DNA of 64,000 bases from contig JALCNP010000012.1 in assembly GCA_022649135.1 (NCBI GenBank), positions 1-64,000 on the forward strand, written 5' to 3'. The notes under the pieces were generated by a model. That model did not search any database. It had not been told where the DNA came from and saw only the letters and a program-made list of their open reading frames with translations. Within the stretch, counting starts at the first letter, position 1, and each line of letters starts with the position of its first letter. This DNA is from Bifidobacterium sp. (GTDB taxonomy: Bacteria > Actinomycetota > Actinomycetes > Actinomycetales > Bifidobacteriaceae). Made by a program: the position numbers and the translations under genes. This document shows positions 30,733-42,631 of this stretch, in pieces.

Positions 30733-33147
30733 CTAGTCCCCGACGATCACCGACTCCCCCGCGCGCGTAAAGTCCAGAACCGCGCCCGCAAGCTGAACCT
30801 GGTGTTCCAGCCCGGGATCGGCGTCCAGCACCCCTTGGGCATCCTTGCGCGCCCGTGCGATAACGGGCGCATCCTGCACGACCCTGAGCAGCTTCAGGCT
30901 CGACTTCCCGCCCGACTGGGCATCCCCCAGAACGTCCCCGGCACCGCGCAGCTCGAGATCCGCCTGGGCTATCCGCGCCCCGTCAAGCGATCCGTGGATG
31001 ATCTCCAGTCTCTTCTCGGCGATGCTCCCCGGTTCCGCCCTGGAGACAAGAAACGCCCATGAGCGGGTACCGCCACGCCCGACACGCCCGCGAAGCTGAT
31101 GCAGCTGAGACAATCCGTAGCGATCGGCGTCAAAGACCACTATGCAGCTTGCCTGGGGGACATCGACCCCCACCTCGATCACCGTGGTCGCGACCAGGAC
31201 CGGCGTGCTTCCGTCGGCGAAGCCCGCCATCACACGCTGTTTGGTCGCATCGTCGTCTCGCCCGCTCAGAGTCGCGATCCGAATTCCCGAAAACTGGGCG
31301 AGACCGGCGAGCCTGCGGGATATCTCCATCACGGAATGAAGAGGGCGGGGCTGTTCGGCAGCGGACTCCCCCGTCTCCTCGTCGATCCGCGGAGCCGCCT
31401 CCATCCCCTCCTGGCTGTCGTCGTCCTCGTCGATTCGCGGACAGACCACATAGGCGCGTTCGCCGGCGTCGACGCGGCTGCGAATATGGCCGAACATGCG
31501 CGATATCGTGTGCGCATCGGACTCCCGCACGACGACCGTGTGTATGGGCTTGCGACCCCCTGGAAGCTCCGTGAGCATCGATATGTCCAGATCCCCGAAC
31601 CACGTCATAGCCGCCGAACGCGGGATGGGAGTCGCCGTCATCACCAGAAGATGGGGGGACCTCCGTCCTCTGTCGTGCAGGGACCCGCGCTGCTCCACGC
31701 CGAAACGGTGCTGCTCGTCAATGACGACCAAGGCAAGATTCGGCGCCTGGAATCGCGCGGAGAACGCCGCATGCGTGGCAACCACGATGCAGGGGTCGCC
31801 GCTTGCGGCCTGCGCGAAGGCCTTTCTGCGCGCGGCCAGCCTCATCCCGCCCGTGAGCAGAACGACCGGCACGCGACGACCCCGGCCGTCTCCCTCATCT
31901 CCTGGATCTGCGATCTTCCCCGCAGCGTCGGAGACATCATCGCCGCCACCGGACAAAGCACGGACGAAAGCGCGGACCGTCGCGTAATGCTGTTCGGCAA
32001 GAACCTGCGTCGGCACCACGAGTACAGCCTGGAAACCGCAGTCCACCGCCTGCAGCATCGCGGCAAGAGCCACCACCGTCTTCCCGGAGCCGACCTCTCC
32101 CTCCACAAGACGGTGCATGGGATAGGGACGGGCCATATCCTGGGCGATCTGCGACATGACTTCGCGTTGGCCCCGGGTGAGCTCGAACGGAAGCGAACGC
32201 ACGAATGCATCACGCAGGGCAGTGGCATCGCAGGAATATGCCTCGCATCCGTGAATCTGCTGACGTGTGCGCAGCACGGCCGTCTGGGAGACGAACGCCT
32301 CCTCGTAGCGCAACGTGGCCACCGCCGAGGAGAACATATCCACCGTGTGCGGATCATGGATGGCCCATATCGCCTCCCGGCGGTGAAGAAGTCCATTGGA
32401 TTCGCGAACCTCCTCGGGCAGGATGTCCGGGATCGATCCGCTGCCCTCCCGAGCATCGCTCTTCGCATCGTCATCGTTTCCGCGCTCGCCACGAGCGGCA
32501 TCGTCGAGGACGGCATCAGCAGCATATTGCGCAACCGGGGAATCCACGGCCGTCAGCATCGCGATAATCGACTCGTGGATGTGCTCACTCGATATGCGGG
32601 AATTCGCATGGTAGACGGGCCGGGGTCTGCATACCCTTGCCAAGGCGGCCTCATCCGTCGGGGCGTCGAACCTCATGCCCTCCTCCCCCTCGGCAGACGA
32701 TGGCACCGTCAGCACCTGGGGGTGGGTGAACTGGAGCTGACCGTTGAACTCACTGGGCTGCCCGGCAATCACGACATGCGCACCATTGCGCAGCTTCGAG
32801 GCCATCCATTCCACATAGGGCCGCTTATGCGAGAAGAACACGATTCTCGCCGTCCCCGAATCCGTCGATCGCGCCGCCGCGAACCGGGCGTCGTCCACAA
32901 CGGCCTCCAGGCGGTAGCCCCGCCCACTCATCGAGCTCACCCGGACATCACCCACCTGGGCTGCGAAAGCCATGTCCTCGCCGATCGTCGCCTCACGGAT
33001 CGCCCGCAGGGGGACGGGGGGAATCACACGAAAAGGATAGTACGTCATCGCTTCGCCGACGGTACGAACCCCCAACGCCTTGAAGGCACTCACACGGCGC
33101 TTATTGCTGATCAGCGACGACACCGCCGCATTCAATGAAACGCTCAT
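30733..33147 (-). CDS. recG: ATP-dependent DNA helicase RecG
   Basis: MHRLVEGEVGSGKTVVALAAM, VVIDEQHRFGVEQR, LHQLRGRVGRG. Confidence 0.96.
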   Translation of the reverse strand: MSVSLNAAVSSLISNKRRVSAFKALGVRTVGEAMTYYPFRVIPPVPLRAIREATIGEDMAFAAQVGDVRVSSMSGRGYRLEAVVDDARFAAARSTDSGTARIVFFSHKRPYVEWMASKLRNGAHVVIAGQPSEFNGQLQFTHPQVLTVPSSAEGEEGMRFDAPTDEAALARVCRPRPVYHANSRISSEHIHESIIAMLTAVDSPVAQYAADAVLDDAARGERGNDDDAKSDAREGSGSIPDILPEEVRESNGLLHRREAIWAIHDPHTVDMFSSAVATLRYEEAFVSQTAVLRTRQQIHGCEAYSCDATALRDAFVRSLPFELTRGQREVMSQIAQDMARPYPMHRLVEGEVGSGKTVVALAAMLQAVDCGFQAVLVVPTQVLAEQHYATVRAFVRALSGGGDDVSDAAGKIADPGDEGDGRGRRVPVVLLTGGMRLAARRKAFAQAASGDPCIVVATHAAFSARFQAPNLALVVIDEQHRFGVEQRGSLHDRGRRSPHLLVMTATPIPRSAAMTWFGDLDISMLTELPGGRKPIHTVVVRESDAHTISRMFGHIRSRVDAGERAYVVCPRIDEDDDSQEGMEAAPRIDEETGESAAEQPRPLHSVMEISRRLAGLAQFSGIRIATLSGRDDDATKQRVMAGFADGSTPVLVATTVIEVGVDVPQASCIVVFDADRYGLSQLHQLRGRVGRGGTRSWAFLVSRAEPGSIAEKRLEIIHGSLDGARIAQADLELRGAGDVLGDAQSGGKSSLKLLRVVQDAPVIARARKDAQGVLDADPGLEHQVQLAGAVLDFTRAGESVIVGD

Positions 33148-33221
33148 GCACTCCATCTTCCCCAAGCAGCCCGACAGAGCGAGACGCGGCGGGCGCCGCG
33201 TCGTGTCCGACGGGGAACAGC

Positions 33222-33256
33222 AAAGCCCCGAAAGCCATACGGTCTTTCGGGGCTTT
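33222..33256 (-). terminator. Terminator hairpin downstream of rpmB
   Basis: AAAGCCCCGAAAG / CTTTCGGGGCTTT, 9-nt loop. Confidence 0.8.
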
Positions 33257-33274
33257 AAGCGTTTATCTCGCTAT

Positions 33275-33469
33275 TCACGCGGCCACGCGCTGAACCTTGC
33301 CTGCCTTGAGGCATTTGGCGCACACGCTGATGCGAACGCTTTCGCCATCAACGGTGGTACGAACCGGCTGCAGGTTCGGGCGGAAGGTGCGCTTATTGCG
33401 GATATGCGAATGCGAAACGGTGAAACCGGTCTGCGGTCCCTTGCCGCACACTGCGCAACGAGCTGCCAT
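33275..33469 (-). CDS. rpmB: 50S ribosomal protein L28
   Basis: [36 protein letters not shown]. Confidence 0.97.
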
Positions 33470-33754
33470 GATGAACTCCCTATTTGTTGACTTGCACGTC
33501 TGTTTTACGCTCGACCACGATAGATACGACGCCGAACACACAACTTCACTAATATATAGCTAAATCGGATAATCCGCAACTGCAGCGTGTATCAACGCTC
33601 ATCTTTCAGCGCAAACGCCGCCGGACACGATATATTCAGCTTATATGCCTATGGTGATTCCCATCCTAAGCTTCTAGAATCACGCTGGAGCGACTATCGT
33701 CCACACCATCACAGGATCCACGCTCATGCGCGCTGCGACGAACAGGAGGTCAGC

Positions 33755-34879
33755 ATGGATGACATCACACGAACCGATCCCGCACCGGCAACCGAGGCGA
33801 ACGGCGCCTCCGTATCCGGGCGTTCGGGAGAAGCCGACGCCAGGAGCCGCGCGGTCAGGGACACCGGTCCATCCGTTCTTTCCCTGGGTCAGATATGGGT
33901 CGACATCATGCTCGATGTCCCGGCCATTCCCCAGGCCGGGGGCTTTGCGGTCACCCGGCAGGTGACGCCGGCGATCGGAGGAAGCTACCGGGTGCTGGAT
34001 GCCGCGCGCCGCATGGGGGCCCGGTCCCGGCACGGCGGCATCATCGGCACCGGCTTCTGGGGCACCGCGATTCGCAACGCACTGCAGGAAAGCGGCATCG
34101 AGCACGTCGGACAGGACCGGCTCGACGCCGATACGGGATTCAGACTCGTATTCAACGATGGCGAACGCAAAACGTTCATCGCCACCTACGGCGCCGAAAC
34201 GCAGGGGGACGAGGAGACCTTCGCCGAGCTCGAGCCCGACGCCGGCGATGTCGTTCACATCAGCGGCAACACCCTGATGGATCATTCGGCGGCGGGAATC
34301 GACGTTTTCCTCGAGAGAAAGGGCAATGCCCCGGGGTCGCGCGACTTCACGCTGGTTCTCAACCCCACGAACTCCCTGCACCTGGTGAACGACCATCTTC
34401 TGGAGGACACGGTTCTCGCCCGGCCGCTGTGGTCATGCAACCGGCAGGAGGCGGTTACTCTGGCGGAGCGTCTCGGCGTCGACACACGCAACGACGCGGC
34501 CATGACCGTCGGGGGCGGATTCGACGAATCCATGGCGGGGCTATGCGAGGCCCTGGGCTCGGTGCTGCACGCCCCCATCGTGCTCCGCGCCGGATCGCGA
34601 GGCGCCTGGGTGCGCGAGGCGAACGCCGCCCATGCACTTCACATCCCCGGGTATCCGACGAAGCCCGTGCACACCAGATCCGCCGGCTCATGCCACACCG
34701 GTGCCCTGTGCGCGATGCTCGCCGAAGGACGTTCGCTGCAGGAGGCGACCCGCCTCGCCAACGCGGCCGCGTCCCTTGCCATCGATCACAGCGTCTCGGG
34801 GGTGCCGCAGTGCCCGGATCCGACCCAGGCGCAGGCCTTGGCGGATTCATCCGGAGACATGCCGGACGAACGCCGCTGA
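33755..34879 (+). CDS. PfkB-family carbohydrate kinase
   Basis: LSLGQIWVDIMLDVP...GGSYRVLDAARRMGA...RSAGSCHTGALCAML; AGGAGG upstream of ATG 33755. Confidence 0.85.
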   Translation: MDDITRTDPAPATEANGASVSGRSGEADARSRAVRDTGPSVLSLGQIWVDIMLDVPAIPQAGGFAVTRQVTPAIGGSYRVLDAARRMGARSRHGGIIGTGFWGTAIRNALQESGIEHVGQDRLDADTGFRLVFNDGERKTFIATYGAETQGDEETFAELEPDAGDVVHISGNTLMDHSAAGIDVFLERKGNAPGSRDFTLVLNPTNSLHLVNDHLLEDTVLARPLWSCNRQEAVTLAERLGVDTRNDAAMTVGGGFDESMAGLCEALGSVLHAPIVLRAGSRGAWVREANAAHALHIPGYPTKPVHTRSAGSCHTGALCAMLAEGRSLQEATRLANAAASLAIDHSVSGVPQCPDPTQAQALADSSGDMPDERR

Positions 34880-35090
34880 AACCTGTCATCGTCGGCTGCG
34901 CCAAGCCCTCACCTGCATCCGGGCAGCGGGCGCGCGAGGGGATACGACGTCGCCCCATCCCGAGCAACGCCGTATCCACCCCTCTGTATAGTCTCTGAGC
35001 GGTGCCATTTCATACGGGACGGACGAGGGTCTTCTCGCCCGGGCGCCCCATGAACACCTGTAGGTCATGTCTGGAGTTGCGGGGAGATGA

Positions 35091-36371
35091 TTGCCGATGA
35101 CGGATTCTTCGACACCACGCAGGCTGCTGAGCGAGGACGTCCGGGAGCACAATCTTGACCTGCTGCTCTCCCAGCTCTCCACCAGGGCGGGGGTTTCGCG
35201 ATCCTATCTTGCGCAATCGACGGGTCTGGCGCCAAGCACGATCACGCTACTGATAGACGAGCTGCAGGAGCTGGGATTGGTGACGACGCTGGACGACGTC
35301 GATTCCACGACACTGGAACCGGGACGCCGAAAACAGCTGCTGACCCTTGCAAGCAACACGTATGCGATCGCCGGAATGCAACTCACCGGCGACTGCGTGC
35401 GCGTCTCCTGCAGGTCCATCAGCGGACAGGACATCCTCGACGAGGAGCGTCCGGTTGTTTTCCAGGGCCGTTCCATCGAGGAGTTCGCGCACTACATAGC
35501 GGAGCGGATAGAGAATCTCGTGGGGATTCTCGCAACCCGCAGATTTTCGGGGCTCCCGGTCGTTGGCGTGGTGATGCCGGCACCCGTTTTCAACAATCAC
35601 CGCACAATACTTGCGGCAATTGATTTTGGATGGACCTCGACGGTCGATCTCGCGGCGCTCATCGAGCATGATCTGTCACACGACGTGAAGGTTCTGCTGT
35701 TCAACGACGCCAACTGTTCATTGTGGGCCGACTACACCCACCTCTGCATGACGTCTCCGCGTTCGTCGATGCCGGAGAACGTCCTGTACATCAAATCCGA
35801 TGTCGGCATCGGAGGCAGCGCCGTCATTCATGGCAGAATCTACAACGGATCCCACGGCATGGCCATGGAGCCCGGGCATATGCAGGTGGACCCGCACGGA
35901 ATCGCATGCAAGTGCGGACGAGTGGGCTGCCTGGTCACTCTGGCCGGTCCGGACGTGCTGATCCGCAAAGCCGCAATGACCAAGGAGGACAAGGAGCTGG
36001 GCAGGGATGCGACCCTGGCGCTGCTGTTGCGCAGGGAACGCGAGGGGGATCATGAGGCGGCGATGATTCTGGGCGGGGCCGACGATCTGATACGCACCAT
36101 GCTTATCGACATCATCACGATGTTCACCCCGGATCGCGTGATTCTGGGAGGGTACCTTGCCCGGCGGGTCGACCGTCTGTCCGACGGACTTCCACCTTTC
36201 GCGTTTTTCCCGACGGGCGCAGGGACCTCCCCCGATTCGGCCGGAATCATTCCCACGCATTATCCGACGAATGGGGCGATGACCGGCATGCTGATCAGCC
36301 TGAAGACCATGGTGCTCTCCAACGCGGCCCACATAGCCCGCAAGGAGAGATGGACGCCTTCGGTCATCTAG
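35091..36371 (+). CDS. ROK-family transcriptional regulator
   Basis: N-terminal wHTH (SRSYLAQSTGLAPSTITLLIDELQELGLV) plus ROK domain (ACKCGRVGCL zinc motif). Confidence 0.92.
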   Translation: MPMTDSSTPRRLLSEDVREHNLDLLLSQLSTRAGVSRSYLAQSTGLAPSTITLLIDELQELGLVTTLDDVDSTTLEPGRRKQLLTLASNTYAIAGMQLTGDCVRVSCRSISGQDILDEERPVVFQGRSIEEFAHYIAERIENLVGILATRRFSGLPVVGVVMPAPVFNNHRTILAAIDFGWTSTVDLAALIEHDLSHDVKVLLFNDANCSLWADYTHLCMTSPRSSMPENVLYIKSDVGIGGSAVIHGRIYNGSHGMAMEPGHMQVDPHGIACKCGRVGCLVTLAGPDVLIRKAAMTKEDKELGRDATLALLLRREREGDHEAAMILGGADDLIRTMLIDIITMFTPDRVILGGYLARRVDRLSDGLPPFAFFPTGAGTSPDSAGIIPTHYPTNGAMTGMLISLKTMVLSNAAHIARKERWTPSVI

Positions 36372-36488
36372 GGCGGCGCCGAGGGGATGCCGCTCCTGCG
36401 GGCGAAGGCGCTGAACGCCGATCGGGGGCATCCCCTCAGCTGGTCGGCGCCTCGTTGGCCTTGAGGAAATTCACGAAATCGCATGTCC

Positions 36489-38036
36489 TCACACGGTGGG
36501 TGCTTCGTGCTTCCCCATGGAGATGAGCTCGGCTTCCAGCGCGTACGCGTCGGGGTCGAAGCGCGCGCCTCCAAGAAAGCGCAGGGCTCCGCAGGGGAAC
36601 TCACTCGTGGGATGTGCGCCGAGGCCACCGTGCGAGATGAATTCGACCCAGGCTCCGTGCATTTTCTTCGCAAGCGGCTCGGATGGGTGATCGCCCAGCA
36701 CCTCTGAGACCTTCGGGGCATCGAGAAGATCAAAGAAGTAGGGGATGTCGTCGCAGTGCACCGAGCAGTTCGAGACCGCGGAGCTCTGCCCGAAATCATA
36801 GAGCCAGGTCCGATCGCCCGCTCCTGCTGCATTGCGCGCACTCGCCGCCTTGGCGATGCCGACACGGAACATGAAGATGGTGTTCAGCTGCCCGGCTATC
36901 CGATCCGGTCCGATCCTATGGATTTCCTCGATGAATTGAGCCGCGGCGCGATCCGAGATGCCGGCGGCCCGGAGCTGGTCCTCATCCTCCTCCAGCGTCG
37001 TGTCCGTGTCCATCGGGAAGGCGAACTCATTATGCGTGCTTCCCATGAGCAAAGACACCTCGCCACCCTGTCCGCTCGCATAGGCGTCGTATTCGGACTG
37101 CGTGATGACATCCCCGTCGATCGTAGGCGCATACGCGAGATTCACCGAACCGATGAAGCCGTCGTTGATGGCCTTCACCATGTCGTCGACGGAAGACAGG
37201 GATGCGGGGGCGTCGGCGATGACGTTGACGGCACGCTCATGATCGAGGATCACGTTCTGATCGACGCCCCTCCATGCCTCGGCGGTTGGTTCCACCCCGA
37301 TCACGGAGGCGAGAGATCTGCCCACCTCCTCCGCCTGCCATGCATCGGGGCCGCCGAAAGCACCCGATTCGCTGATGGCCCCGCGGAAGAGACCGGACGC
37401 CTTTCGCGATCCCAGCAGGGCAAGAGCGCTTCCACCGCCTGCGGACTGGCCGGCGATCGTCACCTTCGACGGATCGCCTCCGAACTCCTCGATGTTCTCG
37501 TTTACCCACGTCAAGGCGGCTATCTGGTCAAGAAGACCCCGGTTGAGGGGGGCATCGCGCATCCATCCGAAGCCGTCGAATCCCAGACGATAGGAAATGG
37601 AGACGGTCACTATGCCATCGGCATTGAACGAACGCCCGTTGTACCACGGCGAGGACGGGGATCCGGCGAAATATCCTCCACCGTGTATCCACACGAGTAC
37701 CGGAAGATGGGCCCTGCGGTCGCGTGGCGCCGGGGTGAACACATTGACGTTGAGAGTGCTGTCGCCGCAGATCGAAGGCTCCGGTATGGTGACCACCGGC
37801 CCGAAGGGCCGTCTCTGCGCGGTAGGCCCGTATTCCAGCGCGGGACGAACCCCGCTCCAGACAGGGAATCTTTCCGGCGCGGCGAATCGCAGGTCTCCCA
37901 CGGGAGGCGCGGCAAACGGTATGCCGAGATAGGCGGCCGAAGAGGCGTTCTGCCATCGGCCCTGAACGCTTCCACGGGTCGTTTCGACCACGGGTGCCAG
38001 TGCGGGCACATCATAATATGGTACTTGCATGACCAA
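36489..38036 (-). CDS. Type-B carboxylesterase/lipase
   Basis: LPVLVWIHGGGYFAGS, TIAGQSAGGGSALALL (GxSxG nucleophile elbow). Confidence 0.92.
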   Translation of the reverse strand: MVMQVPYYDVPALAPVVETTRGSVQGRWQNASSAAYLGIPFAAPPVGDLRFAAPERFPVWSGVRPALEYGPTAQRRPFGPVVTIPEPSICGDSTLNVNVFTPAPRDRRAHLPVLVWIHGGGYFAGSPSSPWYNGRSFNADGIVTVSISYRLGFDGFGWMRDAPLNRGLLDQIAALTWVNENIEEFGGDPSKVTIAGQSAGGGSALALLGSRKASGLFRGAISESGAFGGPDAWQAEEVGRSLASVIGVEPTAEAWRGVDQNVILDHERAVNVIADAPASLSSVDDMVKAINDGFIGSVNLAYAPTIDGDVITQSEYDAYASGQGGEVSLLMGSTHNEFAFPMDTDTTLEEDEDQLRAAGISDRAAAQFIEEIHRIGPDRIAGQLNTIFMFRVGIAKAASARNAAGAGDRTWLYDFGQSSAVSNCSVHCDDIPYFFDLLDAPKVSEVLGDHPSEPLAKKMHGAWVEFISHGGLGAHPTSEFPCGALRFLGGARFDPDAYALEAELISMGKHEAPTV

Positions 38037-38051
38037 TTCTCCTTAATGTCG

Positions 38052-39353
38052 TCATTTGACTGTTTTTATCGGTATCACGAAAAGCGTCGACAGGGCGGCG
38101 GCGATCGCGGAGTAGAAGAAAAGAACCCTGTGGTTGCCTGCGAACGCGGTGAGAAGCCCGGCGGCAATAAGAGGGGTCAGCGCCTGCGGGATGTTCGAGG
38201 CCACATTGAGAATGCCCAGGTCCTTGGCCGCGGCCCCGTTCGAAGGCAGCACATCGACCATCATGGCCATGTCCACTGCGATATAGGCCCCGTACCCCAG
38301 TCCCAGAAGACCGCCATAGACATACATGCCGGTAACCGTGCGCATGAACAGCGGAATGCAGATCGAACCGGCGATGAACAGGGTGGCGACCCCGACAAAG
38401 ACCTTTCTCCTGCCCAGTTTGTCGGAGATGCGTCCCGCAAGCAGGGTGGAAATGGTCACGGTAACCAGGCTGATGATGCTCAGTATCGAGACCACGTCGC
38501 CTGTTTTCGCCGGATTCACGCCGATGTAATCGGTGATGATATACAGCTGGTAGTTGGTGATGGCCTGATATCCGAGAATCATGAAGAACCGGCCGCCGAA
38601 CGCCCAGAAGAAATCCGGGTGCCTGCGCGGATTGACCATGAACGTTGCGAGGAACGCGGACCAGTCCATTGCAGTATGGACTTCGGTGACGCTTGATTTG
38701 TCCGGATTCGCAAGAACGAAGGCGATGCAGATGACGATGACGAGAATCCCGAAAAAGGTGTATGCGACCCCGATCCTGTTGAGCAGCTGTCCGGCGACGA
38801 TGACCCCCACCGTCCCGCCCAGGGACGAGCCCACCCCCGTGATCGCAGATGCCAGACCGCGGTTGTCGCTCTCTATTCGATCCGAGATGATGGCGGAGAG
38901 GGGGCCCTGAAAAGCGTTGAGCAGGACCTGTATGGCAACCCATGCCACCGCAATCCACAACAGTGTGTTGGCCGCCTGAATGGCAATCGTGCATATGCCG
39001 CCGCCGATGCCGCCCAGCAGTATCCATGGTGCACGACGCCCCAGTCTGGTTCGCGTCCGGTCCGAGAAGGCACCGACAATCGGCTGGACGAAAATGGTGG
39101 CAACCGCCGAAATCGAAGTGACAAAGGCCAGATTCGTGACTTTGTGCGCGGCATCGAGATTCGTCATCTGCTGCGGCAGAAGAATCGCGACCAGCCCGGC
39201 ATAGGTCATGAACAACCCCAGATATGACACACCCAGAGAAGCCAGGAGCGCTTTGCGCTTCCCTGCGGATAAAACTACGGGCGGCGGCGTGACGCCCGGA
39301 GACCGAACCGATGCCACACCCCCGTCAGCCTGTGGTGAATGACTACTGCTCAT
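38052..39353 (-). CDS. MFS transporter
   Basis: About 12 TM segments; GAFSDRTRTRLGRRAPWIL and GRISDKLGRRKVF MFS loop motifs; GGAGGAG RBS. Confidence 0.92.
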   Translation of the reverse strand: MSSSHSPQADGGVASVRSPGVTPPPVVLSAGKRKALLASLGVSYLGLFMTYAGLVAILLPQQMTNLDAAHKVTNLAFVTSISAVATIFVQPIVGAFSDRTRTRLGRRAPWILLGGIGGGICTIAIQAANTLLWIAVAWVAIQVLLNAFQGPLSAIISDRIESDNRGLASAITGVGSSLGGTVGVIVAGQLLNRIGVAYTFFGILVIVICIAFVLANPDKSSVTEVHTAMDWSAFLATFMVNPRRHPDFFWAFGGRFFMILGYQAITNYQLYIITDYIGVNPAKTGDVVSILSIISLVTVTISTLLAGRISDKLGRRKVFVGVATLFIAGSICIPLFMRTVTGMYVYGGLLGLGYGAYIAVDMAMMVDVLPSNGAAAKDLGILNVASNIPQALTPLIAAGLLTAFAGNHRVLFFYSAIAAALSTLFVIPIKTVK

Positions 39354-39425
39354 TACTCCTCCTTGAGTAATCTTCCTTGATTACGGCCTTGGCCAATACA
39401 TGTGATGTCAAGGAAGTTATCGAAG

Positions 39426-39468
39426 ATTCTATCTCGAAAACCTGTTTATTTCAACCCTTGAAATAAAC
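39426..39468 (-). promoter_or_regulatory. Predicted promoter of MFS-carboxylesterase operon with 25-bp inverted-repeat operator over the -35
   Basis: Minus strand TTGAAA - 17 bp - TAGAAT; GTTTATTTCAA-CCC-TTGAAATAAAC at 39444-39468. Confidence 0.85.
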
Positions 39469-39671
39469 TTTCGACGCATGTGCGCCCACCGTTCCCGCTA
39501 CGCTGGCACATGGAACGCAGACCCGCACACTCCCCCTGCATGCTGAAGACGATCCCGCTTCCCGGGTCGCGCGCAGACCCGGGGAACGACGACACCATTC
39601 GCCATCGGCTTCTTCGTCATGGGTGCGCCGCCCCGCGCCCCCACGACGCACCGCACGCATGGCATTCCCCG

Positions 39672-39881
39672 TCACGCCACAATTACTCCTCCCGCGTAGG
39701 TAAGGCCGTACAGGAGTTCATCGCCTTTCGTTATCCGTTCGAAGCCACGGAACGAATAAATCGTTCCGACCGTCTCATGGGAATAGACCAGCCCGTGCCC
39801 GCGAAACTCACGGGGTCCCCTGTATGGATGGTCCTCATCGCACCAGCGCAGCGCCGCACGCAGGAAAGCATAGCTGTCGCC
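39672..39881 (-). pseudogene. Possible remnant of a DUF5680-like gene (C-terminal half only)
   Basis: YAFLRAALRWCDEDHPYRGPREFRGHGLVYSHETVGTIYSFRGFERITKGDELLYGLTYAGGVI with no in-frame start outside the upstream lactonase gene. Confidence 0.4.
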
Positions 39882-39900
39882 GTCCCGTCGTTCGCCGCCT

Positions 39901-41232
39901 CTATGGCAGCGGAACCAGAACCGTCGGGGAGTTCGCCGGGAACCGGCCCGCCAGGCGCGGATACCCGCCGGGCCCCACGCGGAACACACTCAGTTCGTTG
40001 GAGGCCTCGTTGGCGGCGACGATGCAGCCACCGATCCTGCACAGCTGCCGGGGTCGGCTTCCGGCCGCCGAGACGCCACGGTCCACCCATTCCGCATCAT
40101 CGGGGGAAACCCGCGCCTCCGGCGACGATCCGCGCTCCATGCGAACAAGAGATCCGCCGGCATAGCTCAAGGCGACGATCCGATCGGATCCGCGAAGACC
40201 CACATAGGCGTACCCCTGGATCGCCCCGCCCTCGCGATCGGAGTCCGACCCGGGATCGCAATGCGCGCACCCTTCCGGATCGCGTGCGGCGGCATCCGCG
40301 CCTCCCGCACCCTCGCTCTGCCGGAGAACGGAGAGCGGCATATATGCCAGCGATGCGGCCTGATCGCCGCTCAGTGCACCGAGCGGCACGTTCTGCACGG
40401 CGCGGATGCCGCAGTCCTCATCCAACGGCGACCCCTGAGGTCTGAGCACGATGACCTCGCACGACCATTCGCACACCACGGCGACGGTCCAGTCGCGTGA
40501 CGAACGGGCCAGCGGGGTGGGCAGGATATGCATGTCCCTCGGGCCCGTGCCCGGTTTCAGGCGGATGGTGCCGATGCGCTGCAGGGTGCCGCAGTCCCAG
40601 GCATGGACGTATATACGGTCGGCTCCCAGATCCGTGCTCAGCACCCGCCCGTCGGGCAGGGGAAGGATCCAATGGGCGTGGGGGCCCTCCTGCGCGGGAA
40701 GAGGACCGGACCCCTCGCCCTCGAAGGTCTGCGCGGCGGGCATCATGCCACCGTCCTCGGCGAGCGAGTGCACGCTTAAAGCCCCGTTTCCGTAATTCGC
40801 CACAAGCAGATGACGCCCACCCAGGTCGTCGACAGCCACGGCCGCGTGGGTGGGGCCCTTCCCCGTCGTGACGATGCGAGAGCGCAGACGCAGGCGCACC
40901 CCGTCGCCATCCTTGCCGAGAATGAGAGACGCCACCTCGTCGCTGTCCTCAAGAACCGCGTATACGATGTCGGCGTCATGGCACAGCCATGTCGGCGAGG
41001 GAAGGGATGCAAGCACCCCCCGATTCGTCAGGCTCACGCTGCCTTCGGTGCAATCCGCCGCGTCCGGGGCGCCATGGGGATGCGAGGAGACGCTCGCGCC
41101 ATCCCGGACTTCCCGCACGCGGCCGCGGCCGGGAGCGTCGTCCTCGTAGACGAAGCGCTCGATTCCGGGGCTGTTCTGTCCGTGCAGCGACCCGAACCCA
41201 CCAACCAAAACATTCATAGCATGCGCATCCAT
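39901..41232 (-). CDS. Lactonase-family seven-bladed beta-propeller (6-phosphogluconolactonase YbhE-like)
   Basis: VLVGGFG...HAAVAVDDLGGRHLLVANYGNGALSVHSL...GPHAHWILPLPDGRVLSTDLGADRIYVH...GPRDMHILP. Confidence 0.82.
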   Translation of the reverse strand: MDAHAMNVLVGGFGSLHGQNSPGIERFVYEDDAPGRGRVREVRDGASVSSHPHGAPDAADCTEGSVSLTNRGVLASLPSPTWLCHDADIVYAVLEDSDEVASLILGKDGDGVRLRLRSRIVTTGKGPTHAAVAVDDLGGRHLLVANYGNGALSVHSLAEDGGMMPAAQTFEGEGSGPLPAQEGPHAHWILPLPDGRVLSTDLGADRIYVHAWDCGTLQRIGTIRLKPGTGPRDMHILPTPLARSSRDWTVAVVCEWSCEVIVLRPQGSPLDEDCGIRAVQNVPLGALSGDQAASLAYMPLSVLRQSEGAGGADAAARDPEGCAHCDPGSDSDREGGAIQGYAYVGLRGSDRIVALSYAGGSLVRMERGSSPEARVSPDDAEWVDRGVSAAGSRPRQLCRIGGCIVAANEASNELSVFRVGPGGYPRLAGRFPANSPTVLVPLP

Positions 41233-41422
41233 GTTCCCAATGTACGCCCACATCCTGTCCGTATGCGACCGGGGGTTCGCTCCGAGACGCAAATCCCCGC
41301 GGACCCCTCCATGGCATAGGCTGGGAGATGGCAGACGGAGGTGCCATGGCCCGGAAACACAGGCGCCACAGAGCAAAGGCGACGGATCCGTACCGCGCCG
41401 ACCGACAGGGAAGGAGGGCCCG

Positions 41423-42631
41423 ATGGGCAACATCATCGACTATGCCACACGGGAGACGCGCACCTTCCCCGAATGCCCGTTCAATGCGGTGGACGCCCTG
41501 GTTCTCGCCGCGCTGTGCTATCAGAAACCGCCCGCCATCGTCCCCTCCCTCGACGAGGCGTACGAGCGTTATGGCACGCTGCGGAACCGCGTGACATCGA
41601 TGGACCTCCGCCATCCGGTCTCCTCCCTGCGCGCGCTGGGAAGACCCCCCTTCGAGGCCCCCACGCTCGGCGAGGTCGCGCGTGCTCTCTCGCCCGCGGA
41701 CTTCGCCCTGAGAACCGGGCACGCGGGCCTGGGGGATCCGCATCTCACCCGGACCCTGTACGCCGCGGTCTCGCACAATCCCCGGTTCGCGAACCTTCCC
41801 GTCGGAGCCTACGAGGAGCGCTACAGCAGCGAAGAGCAGACGCAGTTCGCAGCGGAGACGTTCCTGCTTCCCGACGGCATGCTCGCGATCGTCTTCCGCG
41901 GAACCGACGACTCCTTCGTCGGGTGGAGGGAGGACTTCAACATGGCCTTCCAGTATCCGGTCCCCGCCCAGACGTCGGCGCGGGACTACGTCCGCCGCGC
42001 GGCCCGGATATGGGATGCTCCGATCTTGCTTCTGGGGCACTCCAAAGGCGGCAACCTTGCGGTGTACGCCGGAATCAACGCGCCCTCGGACGTGCGAGCA
42101 CGCATCGTCCGCATGTATTCGCTCGACGGGCCGGGCTTCCCCTCCCGCATCGTCCACAGCGACGAATACACAGCGATGATCGACCGCATCGAGAAGATCG
42201 TTCCCGACTCCTCTGTCGTCGGAATGCTGCTGGAGACGCCCGAGCCATGCACCGTAGTCAAATCCGACCAGAAAGGGATTCTGCAGCATCTCGCGTTCTC
42301 CTGGCAGGTTCGGGACACGGCCTTCGAACTCGAGCCCGGCATCTCCCCGGGATCGCAGTATTTCAACACGGCCCTGAACTCATGGCTGACGGAACTGTCC
42401 AGGGATCAGCGAAAAAGGGCGGTGGACGCCCTGTTCACAATTCTTTCCTCCGGCGGCGCGGACCACATCTCGCAGATCCCCTCCACCTTCCCGAAGGCGA
42501 TTCCTCCGCTGATCGGATCCTTCGTCGGCCTCAACGACGAGGATCGCCGCAATATGCTCACCGCCTTCAACCTGCTGATCCGGGCATCGCTGACACGGGA
42601 CACGAAACACTTCGAACCGCGTGGGCGCTAG
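41423..42631 (+). CDS. DUF2974 (Mbeg1-like) putative lipase
   Basis: MGNIIDYATRETRTFPECPFNAVDALVLAALCY...ILLLGHSKGGNLAVYAGINA...YSLDGPGF. Confidence 0.88.
   Translation: MGNIIDYATRETRTFPECPFNAVDALVLAALCYQKPPAIVPSLDEAYERYGTLRNRVTSMDLRHPVSSLRALGRPPFEAPTLGEVARALSPADFALRTGHAGLGDPHLTRTLYAAVSHNPRFANLPVGAYEERYSSEEQTQFAAETFLLPDGMLAIVFRGTDDSFVGWREDFNMAFQYPVPAQTSARDYVRRAARIWDAPILLLGHSKGGNLAVYAGINAPSDVRARIVRMYSLDGPGFPSRIVHSDEYTAMIDRIEKIVPDSSVVGMLLETPEPCTVVKSDQKGILQHLAFSWQVRDTAFELEPGISPGSQYFNTALNSWLTELSRDQRKRAVDALFTILSSGGADHISQIPSTFPKAIPPLIGSFVGLNDEDRRNMLTAFNLLIRASLTRDTKHFEPRGR

Follow-up and report, generated by a model that had tools for sequence, protein, structure and literature searches.

A putative ROK-controlled MFS–type-B carboxylesterase operon with a conserved palindromic operator in Bifidobacterium

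Results

The window, a 64,000-nucleotide stretch of DNA from a Bifidobacterium sp. genome (2.37 Mb, 33 contigs), carries two co-directional genes on the minus strand. The first gene of this operon encodes an MFS transporter (38052-39353; PF07690, 7.7e-33; PF13347, 9e-20) and the second a type-B carboxylesterase (36489-38036; PF00135, 7e-77) that, by eye, lacks an evident signal peptide. Convergent to the esterase gene, on the plus strand, lies a gene for a ROK-family transcriptional regulator (35091-36371; PF00480, 1e-29). With TTG 38036 as the esterase start, the MFS and esterase genes are 15 bp apart; ATG 38030, in frame and preceded by AAGGAG, is the likelier start, and for the ROK protein ATG 35097 is likelier. 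On re-reading the sequence, the gene coordinates, spacing and co-direction of the MFS and esterase genes given in the original prediction were all correct.

Upstream of the MFS gene, the minus-strand promoter (39426-39454) consists of a −35 element TTGAAA (39449-39454), a 17-bp spacer and a −10 element TAGAAT (39426-39431). A perfect palindrome with 11-bp arms and a 3-bp spacer, GTTTATTTCAA-CCC-TTGAAATAAAC, covers the −35 element at exactly 39444-39468, as had been claimed, and TTGAAA falls entirely within one arm. It has a single match in the 64-kb window, and none of 100 window shuffles contained a match, even at three mismatches. At up to three mismatches it is also the sole match in the 2.37-Mb genome; the 17-bp core, searched at two mismatches, gave one further weak site (G000:C3:30786). 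As in ROK repressor systems, an A/T-rich palindromic operator overlaps the promoter of the target, and we infer repression rather than activation.

The leader at 39354-39419 on the minus strand contains a predicted hairpin that we regard as tentative (z = −2.15 against shuffles, with equally good folding in 4 of 200). Within the MFS-esterase leader taken as 39354-39428, CTTCCTTGA has two alternative pairing partners, TCAAGGAAG on its upstream side and the Shine-Dalgarno stretch TCAAGGAGG. By this folding prediction, the alternative pairing is a possible translational switch. An Rfam search of 33000-42000 returned zero matches.

The esterase, the ROK protein and the operator were sought in a family set of 189 genomes. 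Six of these, counting the window's own, contain the esterase. ROK orthologs are restricted to three: the window's own genome, G141 (47% identity) and G037 (39% over the better-matching piece); the next-best matches in the set, at about 30% identity, represent the general ROK background. With one mismatch allowed in the search, a zero-mismatch operator was found in exactly these three genomes. Random coincidence of two 3-of-189 sets has a probability of 1 in 1.1 million when relatedness is ignored. Gene order in G141 and G037 is that of the window, with MFS, esterase and then the convergent ROK gene. The sequence upstream of the MFS gene is TTAATTTCAAACCTTGAAATTAA in G141 and TTAATTTCAAGCCTTGAAATTAA in G037, the latter followed 56 bp downstream by a second copy, TTAATTTCAATGGTTGAAATTAA. 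Promoter geometry is also fixed: the −35 element occupies the same palindrome arm, 17 bp from the −10 element, in the window (TTGAAA-17-TAGAAT), in G141 (TTGAAA-17-TATAAA) and in G037 (TTGAAA-17-AATAAT).

The arrangement extends beyond the family. Microbacterium sp. 18062 has co-directional ROK, MFS and esterase genes, with a one-mismatch core, AATTCAACACTTGAAAT, upstream of the MFS gene; a weak −10 element follows at a spacing of 18 bp. When each upstream region of the four genomes was shuffled 3000 times, no shuffle reached the observed core (zero mismatches in three genomes, one in the fourth). The presence of the operator core upstream of the MFS gene in three bifidobacterial genomes and one Microbacterium, on which the co-occurrence count rests, is thus far beyond chance.

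Esterase loci that lack this ROK protein provide the counterpart. At four mismatches or fewer, no operator is present at the B. tissieri, B. vansinderenii or B. callimiconis loci, nor at the two Alicyclobacillus loci or that of M. enclense, and a ROK relative is missing from all six. The operator therefore tracks the ROK gene and is separable from the esterase alone. Conservation of the palindrome in relatives that have the operon had been set in advance as a test that could have failed, and the palindrome is conserved in both G037 and G141.

Two other interpretations of the palindrome can be weighed against these data. A perfect inverted repeat is able to fold as RNA and might serve structurally, for example as a terminator or leader hairpin, instead of being an operator. 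The palindrome is, however, A/T-rich and upstream of the predicted transcription start, in three genomes it overlaps the −35 element at an identical register, and its core sequence is kept beyond what mere pairing would demand; a structural role is hardly credible. Alternatively, the operator might be bound by another regulator of the genome, a different ROK protein or one of LacI or TetR type, with the adjacent ROK protein controlling something else. There are nine ROK-domain matches in the genome, several with room for a DNA-binding domain, and many ROK sites share T/A-rich outer arms (PMC4856308). Yet the operator is limited to genomes with this ROK ortholog, while other ROK proteins occur in most genomes (113 of 189 at 1e-25), and the window-type ROK gene adjoins the operon in four genomes and in two different gene orders. 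Binding by another regulator is accordingly improbable. Control of the operon by the adjacent ROK protein through the palindrome, by contrast, is very likely real on these comparative grounds, and the conserved neighborhood, operator co-occurrence and fixed promoter geometry support the regulator proposed in the original prediction.

Wider searches added few cases. Class-wide and order-wide scans yielded one further ROK relative, in G467, and zero further close esterases, and a plasmid collection contained zero esterase relatives at 1e-100. In G467, the ROK gene is divergent from an esterase relative, no MFS gene was found at the locus, and the gap between the two genes contains a four-mismatch site equaled by 0.4% of shuffles. 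As a distant case of the operator, this site is suggestive only. A fourth operator-like site in the family set, with one mismatch in G136, was taken as chance; the surrounding stretch is A/T-rich, and next to it are what by eye resemble an integrase gene and the end of a tRNA.

The two G037 operators (L054, 5287-5365) differ in position. One covers the −35 element and the other lies just past the predicted transcription start, at about +8 to +30. Such a pair would suit two ROK dimers that cooperate or loop the DNA.

The ROK protein scores 104.5 bits against PF00480, for which the cut-off is 22.9. By phmmer it aligns to operator-bound Lmo0178 and to Mlc over residues 15-361, a range that includes the DNA-binding domain. 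Pfam HTH models matched the G141 ortholog and gave no match in the window ROK protein; an N-terminal helix-turn-helix is nevertheless indicated by alignments that start at residues 15-24 and by confident model helices spanning residues 11-57. An AlphaFold model built from five orthologs has a mean pLDDT of 76.8, with low confidence at residues 251-282, and its top Foldseek match is 5f7q, the ROK repressor Lmo0178 on its operator. According to the model, the window protein has the fold of an operator-binding ROK repressor.

The putative effector site departs from the family pattern. In the ExGH and CxCGxxGCxE motifs of the metal and sugar site, the Cys and His positions are kept, and an EPGH motif is present; three of the five orthologs have EPGH, and the other ROK proteins read have E[I/L/V/F]GH. 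The last Glu of CxCGxxGCxE is replaced by Val or Ala in all five orthologs (GCL[V/A]T), whereas the other ROK proteins scanned have GC[L/A]E, with one exception (GCLN). In ROK sugar kinases, this Glu contacts the sugar. Its loss throughout the five orthologs suggests an unusual effector.

The esterase, of 515 residues, contains a COesterase domain (PF00135, 7e-77) and a GxSxG nucleophile motif, here GQSAG (FGGDPSKVTIAGQSAGGGS). Signature 2 of type-B carboxylesterases, quoted as EDCLxLN in PMC3701795, is replaced by GDSTLNVNVFTP, and relatives have variants of it. Because the COesterase domain score is still high, the departure would mark a subgroup of the family rather than a protein outside it. 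The esterase relative of A. tengchongensis was considered as the malathion-hydrolyzing D1CarE5, an identification that was rejected since the published motif and primer sequence are absent from the locus.

The MFS protein belongs to the MFS fold family (PF07690, 7.7e-33). It is 75% identical to the MFS protein beside the esterase in G141, 67% to that in G037 and 53% to that in Microbacterium; those at other esterase loci are 30-33% identical. It matches MFS_2/GPH sugar-symporter models and, weakly, efflux models (H+ antiporter, Bcr/CflA), none at the NCBIfam cut-off. We infer import rather than export.

Glycosidase genes accompany the esterase in relatives. Each of the five other bifidobacterial loci has a GH3 gene several kb or less from the esterase. 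The GH3 protein of G141 passes the NCBIfam threshold for exo-alpha-(1->6)-L-arabinopyranosidase, and those of G037 and B. tissieri fall just under the one for exo-beta-1,3/1,6-glucosidase. The B. vansinderenii and B. callimiconis loci also encode a GH30 protein with a sub-threshold resemblance to endo-1,6-beta-glucanase. Outside the genus, a GH3 gene immediately precedes the esterase gene in A. tengchongensis, and one is nearby in M. enclense; the A. hesperidum locus has the esterase and no GH3 match. The common theme of these neighbors, as far as their sequences predict, is 1,6-linked or 6-substituted beta-glucosides. Because the neighbors point that way, an ester-modified plant glycoside, either ester-capped or ester-linked, is our best guess at the substrate, a tentative choice that relies on guilt by association.

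The same genes might serve detoxification, with the MFS protein exporting and the esterase inactivating a toxic ester, such as a plant defense compound, antibiotic or pesticide, under induction via ROK. The weak matches to efflux families would fit, and xenobiotic esters are among the possible substrates of broad type-B carboxylesterases (PMC3701795, for a protein that differs from the esterases here). The MFS_2/GPH sugar-symporter matches, the ROK regulator and the GH3 and GH30 neighbors in relatives all point instead to glycosides, and we consider detoxification unlikely.

The PfkB kinase and beta-propeller lactonase that flank the locus had been proposed to supply later pathway steps, which the comparison does not support. 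Relatives of the two occur widely without the operon, in 82 (PfkB) and 38 (lactonase) of 112 genus genomes. In five related genomes (L083-L087), RecG, PfkB, lactonase and an Mbeg1-like gene are arranged as in the window; PfkB and lactonase are immediate, convergent neighbors with no ROK, esterase or MFS match between them. In G037, their relatives are on contigs other than that of the operon. PfkB and lactonase were therefore rejected as operon partners and are better seen as older neighbors on either side of a 5-kb ROK-esterase-MFS cassette.

The segment missing from the five related genomes spans 34880-39900. Since PfkB and lactonase adjoin without it there, it was probably gained in the window's lineage; loss in the others is the less simple option. 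No end repeats of at least 10 bp were found between the two flanks. The G+C content of the cassette genes (59-63%) is just slightly lower than that of the neighbors (64-68%), so composition gives no date for the gain. A DUF5680 gene remnant at 39672-39890, which covers just the C-terminal portion of the profile, separates the operon from the lactonase gene; the five cassette-free sites contain nothing that matches it.

Discussion

We consider it likely that the ROK protein is a dedicated local repressor that acts via the palindrome on an operon tentatively assigned to ester-glycoside uptake and cleavage, the whole forming an acquired cassette. In the proposed mechanism, ROK would bind the palindrome over the −35 element and exclude RNA polymerase until freed from the operator by an inducer, which is probably either the compound taken up or a product of its cleavage. 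The MFS protein would import an ester-modified small glycoside or related ester, from which the presumably cytoplasmic carboxylesterase would strip the acyl or aglycone group. Glycosidases encoded elsewhere, perhaps by a TetR-linked GH30-GH42-GH3-GH3 cluster on contig C15 of the same genome, could then use the sugar. The three genes would have entered an older PfkB-lactonase gene pair as a unit.

The C15 cluster (L098, G000:C15:33000-48000) has the order MFS-GH30-GH42-TetR-GH3-GH3, with GH42 assigned by eye, and is without an esterase. It resembles the esterase-containing cluster of B. vansinderenii and B. callimiconis, and by analogy its glycosidases are perhaps linked to the MFS-esterase operon.

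Bifidobacteria are already known to have local ROK regulators that sit next to transport genes and use palindromic operators; the MFS–type-B carboxylesterase target appears to be new, and the unusual effector site may make this ROK protein a variant. NagR of B. longum subsp. infantis is a global ROK repressor with 11 palindromic operators, 10 of them overlapping the −10 or −35 element, and GlcNAc-type effectors (PMC9599254). The window ROK protein shares with it the palindromic operator, which for NagR mostly covers −10 or −35, and differs from it in target, in altered residues at the effector site and in its predicted control of one operon through one operator. AraU controls an arabinose transporter (PMC5928203). 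RafR, listed with other ROK regulators in PMC4856308, controls a raffinose cluster in B. breve UCC2003. Both are local regulators next to the sugar-uptake genes under their control, as would also hold for the window ROK protein; for neither has an MFS–type-B carboxylesterase pair been reported. Lmo0178 of Listeria monocytogenes (PDB 5f7p/5f7q/5f7r), solved with operator and with inducer, is the best sequence and fold match; it is about 20% identical and keeps the Glu (GCLE), whereas the window protein has GCLV.

On the enzyme side, CaeA of B. longum subsp. longum is a hydroxycinnamic acid esterase that frees glucose from feruloyl glucose (PMC6237967). Like, presumably, the window esterase, CaeA is a cytoplasmic bifidobacterial esterase, and its plant-glycan locus also has transporters and a local regulator (PMC6237967). 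That locus differs in having a smaller alpha/beta hydrolase (about 35 kDa), a LacI-type regulator and ABC transporters in place of a 515-residue type-B carboxylesterase and its partners. A literature search, with most subscription papers outside its coverage, found no report of a ROK-controlled MFS–type-B carboxylesterase operon.

The locus offers some bifidobacteria a possible route to ester-decorated plant glycosides, such as saponins and acylated flavonoid or phenolic glycosides. As a candidate switch with one operon, one operator and a precisely delimited predicted binding site, TTnATTTCAAnnnTTGAAATnAA, it is directly testable, and the lost sugar-site residue makes the question of the effector of ROK concrete. 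We speculate, as a doubtful extension of the motif comparison, that the GCL[V/A] subgroup, most members of which also have EPGH for E[I/L]GH, senses an ester-modified glycoside or the released acid rather than a free sugar, and that it is paired with a new type-B carboxylesterase subgroup specific for ester-capped beta-glycosides. If true, these ROK proteins would act as sensors of acylated or aromatic compounds.

The flanking PfkB-family protein (33755-34879) has TRSAG[S/A]CHTGA instead of the ribokinase-like DTxGAGD. Nine other bifidobacterial loci share this altered motif, apart from one small variation, and most of the genus carries the gene; the protein may have a kinase fold with different or no catalytic activity. 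In G467 (L062, 7000-9195), a PfkB gene with the canonical DTLGAGD starts 10 bp behind the ROK gene, which belongs to the subgroup of the window ROK protein.
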